64,000 nt of DNA. Origin: Streptomyces vinaceus (lineage in GTDB: Bacteria > Actinomycetota > Actinomycetes > Streptomycetales > Streptomycetaceae). Shown one piece after another: positions 41,399 to 45,263 of the stretch. The translations under genes and the position numbers were made by a program. Position 1 is the first letter of the stretch. The number at the start of each line of letters is the position of its first letter. The DNA lies in contig NZ_CP023692.1 in the NCBI RefSeq assembly GCF_008704935.1, forward strand, positions 4,268,001 to 4,332,000. The letters are read 5' to 3'. The notes below the pieces were generated by a model, which saw only the letters and a program-made list of their open reading frames with translations, did not search any database and was not told the origin of the DNA.

Positions 41399-42145
41399 TC
41401 AGTGCGCGGCCACACCGGCGCGTGCCATCGCGCCCGTCCGGCGCGCCTGCATCGGTACGCCGTTCGCCGTGGCCCGGGCGGCCGGCGGGGCCGCCGGTGC
41501 GCGGTCGCGGCGCGGCTGCGCCGCCACGCCGTTCTGGACGTCCATGACGGCGTGCGCCACGAGACCGCCCATCGGGTCGTGCCGGATCAGGTCCCGCAGC
41601 CGGGATCTGGACGACCGCCCCTCGTTGCCGGGGTACAGGTGCTTGCCGAGTCCGACCGCGTGGGCCAGTGCGGCGAGCGCCGCGGTCCGCGGGTCCGGCG
41701 GTACGCCGGTGCGGATCGCACTGTCGAGCCGGGCACGGATCTCCCGGCTGATCGCCGTGTCGGTCGCCTGGTAGCGAGTCGTCGGCAGCACTCCGCACAT
41801 CTGGCCCGCGACGGCATGGACCATGCCGCAGCGCTCCAGATGAGCGAGGTAAATCTGGCGGAGCCCCAGCCGGGGTCCACCGATCCAGTGGACGGCCCGT
41901 ACCGGGCTGCCGCGCCTGCGCAGCAGTTCCAGTGCGGAGTCCAGAGTCGGATCTCCTGTCGGCCGTGGCATCACCACGGCGATACGATCCCCGTCAGGGG
42001 CTATCCGTCCTGCCAGAGCCAGCTCTACTAGCTGTGCCCCGGCCAGGCCGAGGTCGAGCGACTGCGGCTGCGCCGTGGTACCCGTGGTCGGGTCCAAAGC
42101 GAGCAGCAGAAGCTCCTCCGGAATTGTTCTGCGGCTCCTGCCCAT
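41399..42145 (-). CDS. GOLPH3/VPS74-like (GPP34) family protein
   Basis: 248 residues. The family signature appears at the start: TIPEELLLLALDPTTGTTAQ, then LGLAGAQLVELALAGRI, and later CGVLPTTRYQATDTAISREI and ALAALAHAVGLGKHLYP. The family comprises phosphoinositide-binding Golgi proteins in eukaryotes and an expanded set of cytosolic proteins of unknown role in actinomycetes. ATG 42145 has GGAGG 5 bases upstream. It is divergent from the D,D-carboxypeptidase gene with a 187-base gap. Confidence 0.92.
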   Translation of the reverse strand: MGRSRRTIPEELLLLALDPTTGTTAQPQSLDLGLAGAQLVELALAGRIAPDGDRIAVVMPRPTGDPTLDSALELLRRRGSPVRAVHWIGGPRLGLRQIYLAHLERCGMVHAVAGQMCGVLPTTRYQATDTAISREIRARLDSAIRTGVPPDPRTAALAALAHAVGLGKHLYPGNEGRSSRSRLRDLIRHDPMGGLVAHAVMDVQNGVAAQPRRDRAPAAPPAARATANGVPMQARRTGAMARAGVAAH

Positions 42146-42224
42146 CCATGCCTCCCCGCGTGGATGAGTGACAGGGTGACGCCTCTCACATTCATCTGTC
42201 GAGAGCGCCTGGTCGCTTTGTGGG

Positions 42225-42254
42225 GGAACCCGCAACTATGTCGTTCTCGTCTAG
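42225..42254 (+). promoter_or_regulatory. Possible ECF (sigma-E-like) promoter before the D,D-carboxypeptidase gene
   Basis: GGAAC (42225-42229) and CGTCTAG (42248-42254) are separated by 18 bases, close to the Streptomyces SigE cell-envelope-stress pattern (GGAAC, N16-17, cgTCtaa). The spacing is one base long. The 5' leader would be about 50-75 bases. Confidence 0.4.
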
Positions 42255-42332
42255 CGCGGGGGCGATGCTCCCTAGACGGGACACTGTTAGACATTCGGAC
42301 AGCCGGACGTGGTGGCGATCGAGGAGGAACTG

Positions 42333-45263
42333 GTGGCGGGCGAGTCCCCCGACAAGTCGGTTGATGAAGGAGCGTCGGGGGCGGCGATGTCGTCCGCGGA
42401 GCGTGACCCGAGGCTGTCGGTGTTCCGGCCGCGGGACCCGGAACCGGGTGCCGGTGGCGAGAACCGTGACCCGCTGCGCGACGCGGTGGCGGCGTGGGTG
42501 GCCACGACCGAGGACGAGACCGAGTCCTCCGGTCGGGTGGACTCCGATGCCGATGCCGATGCCGATGCCGATGCCGACGCGGATGCGGATGTCGGCGCCC
42601 ACGCGGATGCGGATGCGGGCGCCGACGCGGATGCGGCCCCGCCGGCCCCTGCCTCGACGCCGGACCGCCCCTCGACCCCGGCCGGGGGCGACCGCACCGT
42701 GGCCTTCCGCGCCCCGTCGCCCACGCGGACCGAGCCGGAGCCCGCCCCGGCCCCGGCCGAGGCCGCTGCGAAGGCCCCGGCTCCGGCCCCCGAGGAGGCC
42801 GGGACGTCCGCCGCGGAGCCCGCCGCCCCGGCTCCGGCCCCCTCGGCGGCCGAGGCGTCGACCCGCGGTGAGGGCGGTACCGACTCCGCGGCCGAGGGGC
42901 CGGCGCACGACAGCGAGCGCACCGCGGTCTTCCGCGCCGTGCGGCCGGACGGTGGTACGGATGCCCCGGCGTCCGCCGCCGGGAAGCCGGGCGGAGGCGA
43001 GCGGAGCCCCGCAGCGGGTTCCGGTGCCGGTTCCGGTGCCGCACGTACGGATTCCGCTTCGGCCTCCGGCGCGGACCGGCCGGAGGCTGTCGACGCGTCG
43101 GCCGGGCCTTCGTCGGACGACAGTGGGCGCACCGCCGTGTTCCGCGCCGTGAGGCAGGATTCCCCGGCCCGAGGTACGGGTTCCGCTTCGGAAGCGGACG
43201 GGACGGCCGTGAAGCCGGCTCCGGCGTCCGCCCGGGGTGGTGCGGACTCCGCCACCAAGGGTTTCGGTGCTTCCGACGCTCCGGCCCGGAGGCCGGGTTC
43301 GGCTCCGGCGGACCGGAACGCAGATTCCGCTTCGGCCTCCGGTGCCGGTAAGCCGGCCGCCGGCGGCGCCTCGGCGGACGACAGCGAGCGCACCGCCGTG
43401 TTCCGTGCGGTCAGGCCCGGCTCCGCCCCCGTGCAGGGCGGCTCGGTCGGCGGGGCCAAGGGCTCCGCTTCGGCTGCCGCCGACGCCCCGGCAGCGAAGC
43501 CGGGTTCGGGTTCGGCGGAGGACAGCGAGCGCACCGCCGTCTTCCGGGCCCCGAAGGTGGACTCCGGGTCCGCCACCGCGGGCAAGGGCGCCGACGAGGC
43601 GGCCGACAGCGAACGCACCGCGGTGTTCCGGGCCGTCAAGCCGGACACCAAGGCCCCGGCCAAGGCTCCCGCCAAGGACCCGGCCCCCGCCAAGGACCCG
43701 GCCCCGGGCAAGGGCCCGGCCTCCGCCAAGGACTCGGCCCCGGAGAAGCCCGCGGCCTCCCGGCCGGTGCCGCCGAAGGCGGTCGGCGGGGAGCGGGCCA
43801 GTACGTTCGTGCCGCTGCGCAAGGACGACGGCCCCGCTCCGAAGCCCGCTTCGGCGTCCGCCCCCGCGGCGGCGGCTCCGGCCGCCCCGGCTCCGGCCGC
43901 CCCGGCCCGGACCGCGCCCGCACCCGCGCCCACCCCCGTACCCGAGCGGTCCGAGCGGACCACGCAGCAGCCGCTGCCGCCCAAGCCGCCGCTCGACATG
44001 CTCGCGGACCTCACCAACAACCCGCCCCCGCCGCCGAGCCCGATGCGCACGGCGATCCGGCGGTTCAAGATCTACGCCCCACTCGTCGTCCTCCTCGCGA
44101 TCGTCCTGGCCGTCGTCCAGCTCGTGCGCCCCATGCCCGAGCCGAAGCTCACGATGACCGCGAAGTCCTCGTACACCTTCGACGGCGGCAACCCGGTCCT
44201 GCCCTGGCCGAAGGAGGGCCAGGCCTACATGGCCGCCGCCGGCCTCGGCACGGTCGGCAGCTTCGGCGAGCAGAAGCCGGTCGCCATCGGCAGCGTCGCC
44301 AAGACGATGACGGCGTACGTGATCCTGAAGGACCACCCCCTCAAGAAGGGGGAGAAGGGTCCCATGATCGACATCGACCAGACGGCGGTCGACGACGGGG
44401 CCAAGAGCTCCGAGGGCGAGTCCACGGTCGGCACGCTCAAGGCGGGCGACAAGATCTCGGAGTACGACGCCCTCGCCGCGATCATGATCCCGTCGGCCAA
44501 CAACGTCGCGCGGCTGCTCGCGCGCTGGGACGCCGGCGGCGACCAGGAGGCGTTCGTCAAGAAGATGAACGAGGCCGCCAAGGAACTCGGCATGGCCAAC
44601 ACCACGTACACGGACCCCTCGGGCCTGGACGCGACGACGGTCAGCACCGCCGAGGACCAGGTCAAGCTCGGGCTCAAGGTCGTGGAGATGCCGGAGCTGG
44701 TCGCGATCACCAAGCTGCCGGAATGGACCGACCAGTACGGCAAGAAGTGGCGCAACTACAACACCCTCATCCCGGGCAACGGCGCGCTCGGCATCAAGAC
44801 CGGCTCCACCACCAAGGCCGGCGGCAACCTCCTCTTCGCCGCCGAGAAGCAGGTCGGCAAGACCAGGCAGCTGATCGTCGGAGCGGTGCTCGGCCAGTAC
44901 GGCGTCCCGATCCTCGACACGGCGATCGCGGCCAGCAAGCAGGTCATGCTGGCCACGCAGAAGATGCTGGTGAACGCGCCCGTCGTGAAGAAGGGCGACG
45001 TGGTCGGGTACGTGGACGACGGTCTCGGCGGCCACACCCCGGTCATCGCGACCGCGGACGTGGAGGCGGTCGGCTGGCCGTCGCTCACCGTCGACGTCAA
45101 GCTCGGCGCGGGGGACGGCAAGCTGCCGCAGACCGCCAAGGCGGGTACCGAGATCGGCGTCCTGACCGTCGGCGACGGGGCCAGCCAGGTGAAGGTGCCG
45201 GTGGCGCTGCAGAGCGACCTCGCCGCGCCGGGGATCGGCAGCAAACTGACCCGTGTCGGCTGA
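42333..45263 (+). CDS. D-alanyl-D-alanine carboxypeptidase (PBP5 class) with long repeat-rich cytoplasmic N-terminus
   Basis: About 976 residues, more than twice the usual length. The first ~570 are low complexity (Asp-Ala dipeptide run, then Ala/Pro/Ser) interspersed with six copies of D-S-E-R-T-A-V-F-R-A or close variants, all cytoplasmic by topology. One membrane helix (IYAPLVVLLAIVLAVVQLV) follows, then the extracellular penicillin-binding domain. It has S-x-x-K in IGSVAKTMTAY, S-x-N in MIPSANNVARL and KTG in LGIKTGSTTKAGG. The enzyme trims peptidoglycan pentapeptides. GTG 42333 follows AGGAGG by 5 bases; GTG 42309 is in frame. A SigE-like promoter precedes it and a hairpin follows. Confidence 0.9.
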   Translation: MAGESPDKSVDEGASGAAMSSAERDPRLSVFRPRDPEPGAGGENRDPLRDAVAAWVATTEDETESSGRVDSDADADADADADADADVGAHADADAGADADAAPPAPASTPDRPSTPAGGDRTVAFRAPSPTRTEPEPAPAPAEAAAKAPAPAPEEAGTSAAEPAAPAPAPSAAEASTRGEGGTDSAAEGPAHDSERTAVFRAVRPDGGTDAPASAAGKPGGGERSPAAGSGAGSGAARTDSASASGADRPEAVDASAGPSSDDSGRTAVFRAVRQDSPARGTGSASEADGTAVKPAPASARGGADSATKGFGASDAPARRPGSAPADRNADSASASGAGKPAAGGASADDSERTAVFRAVRPGSAPVQGGSVGGAKGSASAAADAPAAKPGSGSAEDSERTAVFRAPKVDSGSATAGKGADEAADSERTAVFRAVKPDTKAPAKAPAKDPAPAKDPAPGKGPASAKDSAPEKPAASRPVPPKAVGGERASTFVPLRKDDGPAPKPASASAPAAAAPAAPAPAAPARTAPAPAPTPVPERSERTTQQPLPPKPPLDMLADLTNNPPPPPSPMRTAIRRFKIYAPLVVLLAIVLAVVQLVRPMPEPKLTMTAKSSYTFDGGNPVLPWPKEGQAYMAAAGLGTVGSFGEQKPVAIGSVAKTMTAYVILKDHPLKKGEKGPMIDIDQTAVDDGAKSSEGESTVGTLKAGDKISEYDALAAIMIPSANNVARLLARWDAGGDQEAFVKKMNEAAKELGMANTTYTDPSGLDATTVSTAEDQVKLGLKVVEMPELVAITKLPEWTDQYGKKWRNYNTLIPGNGALGIKTGSTTKAGGNLLFAAEKQVGKTRQLIVGAVLGQYGVPILDTAIAASKQVMLATQKMLVNAPVVKKGDVVGYVDDGLGGHTPVIATADVEAVGWPSLTVDVKLGAGDGKLPQTAKAGTEIGVLTVGDGASQVKVPVALQSDLAAPGIGSKLTRVG
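42539..42630 (+). repeat. Hexanucleotide repeat encoding Asp-Ala
   Basis: About 12 units of GATGCC/GACGCG/GATGCG in a row inside the carboxypeptidase gene, giving an alternating D-A run. Prone to length change by slippage. Confidence 0.85.

Follow-up and report, generated by a model that had tools for sequence, protein, structure and literature searches.

Why should a D-alanyl-D-alanine carboxypeptidase, whose enzyme domain is predicted to lie outside the membrane, carry a long tail that repeats a single short threonine motif over and over? The question is raised by a gene in a 64,000-nucleotide stretch of Streptomyces vinaceus DNA (contig NZ_CP023692.1, positions 4,268,001 to 4,332,000; hereafter the window, whose first letter is position 1 for the coordinates of its features), for which an initial annotation had proposed a multi-site Ser/Thr kinase or FHA-docking motif. 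The motif is real and selected, and its kinase/FHA reading is likely but unproven. We put at roughly 55% the probability that the gene encodes a sigma-E-driven, membrane-anchored D,D-carboxypeptidase whose tail serves as a series of threonine docking sites, phosphorylated by a PknB-type kinase and read by FHA proteins. A motif kept by selection amid changing surroundings suggests, without proving it, that the enzyme is controlled by the cell through this tail.

A repeated threonine motif in a disordered tail

The enzyme, its tail and the motif copies are laid out as follows (E, expectation value; pLDDT, predicted local distance difference test score).

42333..45263, plus strand: gene, GTG to stop, S11 D-Ala-D-Ala carboxypeptidase with a long N-terminal tail
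42333..44060, plus strand: N-terminal tail of 576 residues, cytoplasmic and disordered as judged by AlphaFold2 pLDDT and the basic residues RTAIRRFK before the helix
44061..44126, plus strand: single membrane helix RFKIYAPLVVLLAIVLAVVQLV, N-in by charge, predicted helix 570-597, hydropathy 2.42
44271..44852, plus strand: Peptidase_S11 domain (PF00768, E 1.8e-31), with SVAK at 44292, SAN at 44493 and KTG at 44796
42684..42713, plus strand: motif copy 1, GGDRTVAFRA
42909..42938, plus strand: motif copy 2, DSERTAVFRA
43119..43148, plus strand: motif copy 3, DSGRTAVFRA
43380..43409, plus strand: motif copy 4, DSERTAVFRA
43521..43550, plus strand: motif copy 5, DSERTAVFRA
43605..43634, plus strand: motif copy 6, DSERTAVFRA
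43791..43820, plus strand: ERASTFVPLR (within GERASTFVPLR), a diverged seventh relative with Ala for Thr

The protein specified by the open frame 42309-45263 has 984 residues, and in it Peptidase_S11, the D-alanyl-D-alanine carboxypeptidase family, is the sole Pfam match at E 0.01 (residues 655-848). The tail, described at first as about 570 low-complexity residues before a single membrane helix, counts 576 from GTG 42333 to 44060 and is dominated by A, P, S, G, D, E, R, T, V and K. Its proposed cytoplasmic location agrees with the basic residues just N-terminal to the helix, and the same topology has been argued for S. coelicolor SCO4439, to which we return below, in PMC4751497; a tail on the cytoplasmic side and an enzyme domain outside the membrane is thus a supported prediction. 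AlphaFold2 was run on an alignment of 25 sequences including the window's and gave a mean pLDDT of 49, so that only disorder and coarse layout were used: pLDDT stays below 50 across nearly all of residues 57-548, without helix or strand, and the predicted helices are a short one at 47-56, another at 555-561 and the membrane helix at 570-597, followed by the enzyme domain.

Within this tail we located six copies of RT(A/V)(V/A)FRA, in agreement with the earlier count of at least six. The fuller pattern given for them, (D-S-E/G)-R-T-(A/V)-(V/A)-F-R-A, is exact in five of the six, copy 1 having GGD for DS(E/G), and the threonine described as invariant is present in all six but replaced by Ala in the diverged ERASTFVPLR. 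In 200 shuffles of the same tail, RT..F reached a mean of 0.0 and a maximum of 1, against 6 observed, and T..F[RKV] a mean of 0.1 and a maximum of 2, again against 6, which rules out a chance repeat.

A codon-level comparison of the copies within each gene across DSERTAVFRA, pooled for 36 genes, gave a proportion of nonsynonymous differences (pN) of 0.088 and of synonymous differences (pS) of 0.427, with pS above pN in 36 of 36; for the window's five RTAVF copies the values are 0.018 and 0.421. The flanking spacers, compared without gaps and hence only roughly aligned, yield a pN of 0.523 and a pS of 0.561 over the ten codons downstream (T+9 to T+18), and 0.488 and 0.507 over the ten codons upstream. 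The motif is therefore under purifying selection, while the neighboring spacer behaves as if unconstrained. These measurements bear out the initial remark that the spacer varies freely and the motif is kept, and for the motif they support the function that was deduced from it. Since silent sites have diverged while pN is low, the copies are old yet near-fixed in protein; recent DNA duplication as the source of their likeness is ruled out by the silent-site divergence, and a signal at the DNA level by the silent changes among the window's copies.

Conservation and rewording across Streptomycetaceae

Orthologous tails were examined in two sets, grouped by the identity of the enzyme part to that of the window. 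Open frames running off their locus (25 of 158) were dropped. For the first set, 20 were dropped for want of a membrane anchor pattern, including the tail-less relatives L044 and L045; 114 full tails remained, 111 of them unique (at least 70% identity, n=40; 55-70%, n=49; below 55%, n=22). For the second, ten missed by the SxxK pattern were dropped (L088, L089, L096, L098, L101, L102, L103, L111, L112 and L150), leaving 121, of which 118 are unique (n=40, 62 and 16). By the first-set counts, four of these ten have the motif and five lack it, L150 being uncounted there; both sets combined hold 127 tails, 13 of them without the motif. The tail of L101 is Arg-rich and perhaps out of frame.

T..[FL][RKV] is present in 40/40, 45/49 and 13/22 tails of the three groups of the first set. 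Every same-genus tail of the two sets (84 of 84 and 98 of 98) holds at least one copy, but only 14 of 27 other-genus tails do, so that conservation in orthologues is complete within the genus and partial beyond it. Copy number in the closest group varies from 1 to 9. What lineages keep is the core T-x-x-[FL]-[RKV], while the wording around it differs: the window's group has DSERTAVFRAVKP; most of the 55-70% group has VDQPTAVFK, VDQPTTMLKL and AERTSKFVALK; and other genera have DSRTTMLRLP, NTTTALRLP, EPTMTLRVGK or ETRLLR. The membrane-near copy has the form ERTSxFV(P/A)L in 53 of the 62 tails of the 55-70% group.

The preference for threonine is marked. In the two groups of highest identity, 68% and 72% of the F residues are preceded by Thr at a distance of three, vs a Thr content of 5.3% and 6.8%. 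In the 118 tails, T..[FL][RKV] occurs 404 times and S..[FL][RKV] 9 times, although Ser (8.8% of residues) is more abundant than Thr (6.6%); Thr versions outnumber Ser versions in 110 of the 118, and the reverse holds in none. The stricter [RP]T..[FL][RK] is found 185, 73 and 22 times across the three groups, and [RP]S..[FL][RK] 0, 0 and 0 times. For F, the other spacings T.F and T...F stay around or under the chance level; the largest count, 24 for T.F in the closest group, compares with shuffles that average 16 and peak at 25.

A proposed phosphothreonine docking array

FHA domains read phosphothreonine with a preference at the +3 position. A site that is Thr-only and has a fixed hydrophobic residue at +3 therefore fits a phosphothreonine site read by an FHA domain, and the tails show both features expected of a PknB substrate or FHA ligand, Thr rather than Ser at the acceptor place and a constant hydrophobic residue at +3 (T..F, 366 in 118 tails). 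The genome itself yields 45 kinase-domain matches (42 above the cut-off) and 11 FHA matches, and one kinase (C1:3739377) has two FHA domains (3733855 and 3734369) inside a distance of 6 kb, which we take to be the arrangement of the PknB cluster.

A known switch of this kind provides a lead. The GarA/OdhI segment ETTSVFRADFL resembles the window's motif in the acidic residue before Thr, V at +2, F at +3, R at +4 and A at +5, and when DSERTAVFRAVKP is aligned to the GarA/OdhI peptide SDEVTVETTSVFRADFL, as printed in PMC8546545 (its tryptic form appears in PMC5448819), six identities result (E, T, V, F, R, A), with the motif Thr on Thr22. A review places the phosphorylation of Rv1827 on Thr22, within a T21T22SVF motif that it calls "the preferred PknB target sequence" (PMC6151718), and PDB entry 2kfu is titled "Rv1827 pThr 22". 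The two systems also differ, GarA having one switch segment and an FHA domain of its own, and the window protein many sites and no FHA domain by Pfam; where GarA/OdhI has ETTS, the window motif has ERTA.

Wall proteins linked to PknB through phosphothreonine and an FHA protein have been described in mycobacteria, where MurJ (MviN) and CwlM bind FhaA once phosphorylated by PknB (PMC6180346, PMC3601408). The likeness lies in the control of wall building; the differences are that two sites were studied in CwlM, vs a repeated array on a carboxypeptidase, and that binding was demonstrated for the mycobacterial proteins and is predicted here. In S. coelicolor, PkaI phosphorylates MreC and PBP2 upon co-expression in E. 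coli, and spores are vancomycin-sensitive in a five-kinase deletion as well as in single-kinase over-expression strains except that of pkaI (PMC4416010).

In the mechanism that we favor, the disordered cytoplasmic tail would offer a row of docking sites, each built on the core T-x-x-[F/L]-[R/K/V], and a PknB-type Ser/Thr kinase would phosphorylate their threonines. FHA proteins, such as the pair encoded near the PknB-like kinase, would then bind the phosphothreonine and owe their specificity to contact with the F or L at +3. Multiple copies on a floppy tail could allow graded, multivalent recruitment to, or release from, wall-building complexes, so that the kinase would place the carboxypeptidase rather than switch its active site. 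More tentatively, and with the odds somewhat against it, the family may use a fast-rewriting phosphothreonine code, in which Streptomycetaceae lineages rewrite and re-multiply T-x-x-[F/L]-[R/K] and copy number sets the strength of placement by PknB and FHA proteins. We know of no other D,D-carboxypeptidase under such multi-site control, and this one, if the mechanism is true, would be the first. The motif gives a concrete, testable entry point to the question of how Ser/Thr kinases could be coupled in Streptomyces to wall maturation, spore swelling and glycopeptide sensitivity, phenotypes already tied to SCO4439, and it puts defined threonines in place of the misleading label "transcriptional regulator".

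Several observations weigh against a phosphorylated, FHA-read array. Orthologues that keep the tail and lack the motif, named in the initial annotation as one part of what would refute its proposal, make up 13 of the 27 other-genus tails and none of the 84 in this genus (L088, L089, L092, L093, L094, L096, L098, L099, L100, L101, L108, L109 and L110; 13/111 overall); in the second set 8 of 118 tails lack it, again all from other genera. Purifying selection and the Thr-only pattern speak for a multi-site kinase/FHA motif, and these tails against it. In the FV(P/A)L copy nearest the membrane, Ala replaces Thr in the window and also, by subtracting one count from another, in 12 of the 40 closest tails; 24 of the 40 match neither the Thr nor the Ala form. 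T.L[RK] exceeds chance in the 55-70% group (35 vs 3.7 expected) and below 55% (16 vs 1.2), as does T...L[RK] in the closest group (36 vs 1.9); in our reading these extra L spacings follow from TT doublets (TTMLK, TTALRL) and from STFVPLR. The likeness to GarA, a single hand-picked comparison, is reached by 1756 of 300000 shuffles of the 17-mer (0.6%), and the genome's own GarA homologue reads SETTSTISISG at the switch. A motif profile found no match among PDB sequences, and six motif strings gave none in the accessible literature, outside which most subscription journals and the phosphoproteome supplements lie. Finally, only SCO4439 fragments with the membrane helix and enzyme domain complemented the mutant, by data not shown in PMC4751497, and the tail is therefore, by implication, dispensable for those phenotypes.

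The accessible literature also holds nothing on a Streptomyces D-alanyl-D-alanine carboxypeptidase with disorder and phosphorylation, and "carboxypeptidase" is absent from the main text of the Streptomyces phosphoproteome paper PMC9600765. In the GarA homologue (L167), a CxxC...CxxC stretch precedes ETTS.

Alternative explanations

The motif could act without phosphate if the unmodified T-x-x-[F/L]-[R/K] peptide docked by strand addition on a wall or cytoskeleton protein in the cytoplasm, the threonine being kept for its beta-branched side chain. Such docking, which we consider possible though rather doubtful, would be in keeping with the conservation of V, F and R along with Thr, and phosphorylation-independent FHA interactions have reportedly been found for GarA, to judge from the title of Nott 2009. 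Selection for shape alone predicts, however, Val or Ile at the threonine, whereas the residues three before F in the closest group are Thr (68%), Ala (10%), Leu (7%) and Gly (4%), and Ser accounts for only 9 of the 413 Thr-or-Ser versions. The tail might instead hold a PknB-type kinase at the enzyme, each copy being a weak substrate or a pseudosubstrate that no FHA domain reads. The many copies, the acidic residues before Thr, the likeness to PknB targets and the one copy with Ala for Thr are all compatible with a decoy of this sort, but the +3 rule belongs to reader domains more than to kinases and Thr is retained in six of the seven related window copies, which makes it improbable.

Abundant DNA repeats in the tail and the 1 to 9 copies in the closest group recall an ordinary low-complexity linker, grown by slippage and unequal exchange, whose copies are alike because they are recent. 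While the spacers between motif copies may well be a linker of the slippage type, this account is very unlikely to hold for the motif, given that the window copies differ at 42% of silent sites and hardly in protein, and that the core is kept across genera in new wording. Least credible of all is a tail that forms a transcription-regulator domain, as printed for the N-terminal part of SCO4439. Pfam at E 0.01 gives Peptidase_S11 alone and no DNA-binding match, the NCBIfam matches are D,D-peptidase or transpeptidase-like models only, all C-terminal, and AlphaFold2 predicts disorder and no fold for the tail; with no DNA-binding fold found, we set the label "putative transcriptional regulator" aside. 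The model behind it, PHA03307, is a low-complexity herpesvirus protein model. What favors the label is its publication, on the basis of a match to PHA03307 (PMC4751497).

Occurrence of the enzyme and of the motif elsewhere

The enzyme part has a relative in 294 of 295 genomes of the genus (E 1e-40) and, at E 1e-30, in 120 of 121 genomes and 17 of 17 genera of the family, where two genera (g2 and g5) give weak matches only, in frames of at most 443 residues, and hence not the tailed form. At the class level, a match at E 1e-35 is present in 39 of 296 genomes, the same genus accounting for 28. In seven relatives outside the family, only one of which (L190) clearly has a long low-complexity tail, T..[FL][RKV] is absent before the enzyme match. 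Eight second gene copies in the family were examined and their tails differ, three (L197, L198 and L203) having a single ERTSx(F/L) site and five none; the open frame before the match measures 413, 361 and 102 residues in these three, respectively.

In its own genome, the motif profile matches this gene five times (E < 5e-7) and gives two weak matches elsewhere (E 1.2 and 2.1; 150 of 190 candidates scored), so that a motif shared with other proteins was rejected. One of the weak matches is a 96-residue frame and the other a protein with YRERTAVFREL, esterase-like in appearance; a DNA pattern for RT(A/T)(A/V)F likewise finds four places in this gene and the YRERTAVFREL protein. The ERTSxFV profile picks out this gene, its position verified by tblastn, in all 12 genomes examined, and in one of them it gives a further weak match (E 0.22).

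Relation to SCO4439 and gene neighborhood

Three features around the gene bear on its start, expression and identity.

42322..42327, plus strand: ribosome binding site AGGAGG, read in the sequence, 5 nt upstream of GTG 42333
42224..42253, plus strand: sigma-E-type promoter GGGAAC...CGTCTA, GGGAACCCGCAACTATGTCGTTCTCGTCTA, with a layout matching that of the published sco4439 promoter
41399..42235, minus strand: divergent GPP34 (GOLPH3-like) gene (PF05719, E 1.2e-54); compare SCO4440 beside SCO4439

The open frame also permits a GTG start at 42309, but the ribosome binding site favors 42333, the start chosen initially. We take the window gene as the counterpart of S. coelicolor SCO4439 because the two appear to share domain order (PMC4751497), a GPP34 neighbor and the layout of the sigma-E promoter. 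The likeness extends over the S11 domain with its hallmarks SxxK, SxN and KTG (here SVAK, SAN and KTG), the central membrane helix, the long N-terminal region, the adjoining GPP34 gene, which in S. coelicolor is SCO4440 (PMC12402492), and the sigma-E-type promoter, published for sco4439 as TGGAACCAGTAGGTATGTCGTTCTCGTCTT (PMC6767563). They differ in that PMC4751497 calls the tail a putative transcriptional regulator of lower conservation and, in its accessible part, describes no repeated motif; "phosphorylat" occurs 0 times in its text. The SCO4439 mutant shows swollen germinating spores, altered spore resistance and higher glycopeptide sensitivity (PMC4751497), and on arrays sco4439 is vancomycin-induced in a partly sigma-E-dependent manner (PMC6767563).

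From the promoter at 42224-42253 it follows that envelope stress should raise the enzyme. The same promoter stretch lies upstream of 15 of 111 orthologues, counting only those whose open frame spans it (DNA shown for 13). Besides, the divergent gene places a GPP34/GOLPH3-like, Golgi-type domain in a bacterium.

Further conserved elements of the tail

Outside the motif copies, three stretches of the tail stand out.

42402..42428, plus strand: RDPRLSVFR, conserved N-terminal tail element, with DPR[LVA] in 38/40, 54/62 and 10/16 tails of the three identity groups
42474..42500, plus strand: LRDAVAAWV, conserved short helix, predicted at 47-56
43953..44021, plus strand: juxtamembrane element ERTTQQPLPPKPPLDMLADLTNN, with the short helix 555-561

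In the juxtamembrane element, E541, R542, T543, Q545, Q546 and P547 are invariant in the alignment of 25 sequences, the window's included. Among 18 tails shown that have low identity or lack the motif, 17 keep a Thr at this place, as E-x-T or, in L097 and L114, as D-x-T; L106 is the one without. LRDAVAAWV, which the initial annotation did not mention, may, as a side suggestion, be a second docking element: AVAxW is present in 33/40, 41/62 and 1/16 tails of the three groups (75/118 overall), and a profile of the AVAAWV helix places this gene at the top in 4 of 4 genomes, the runner-up having E 0.005 (150 candidates scored per genome).

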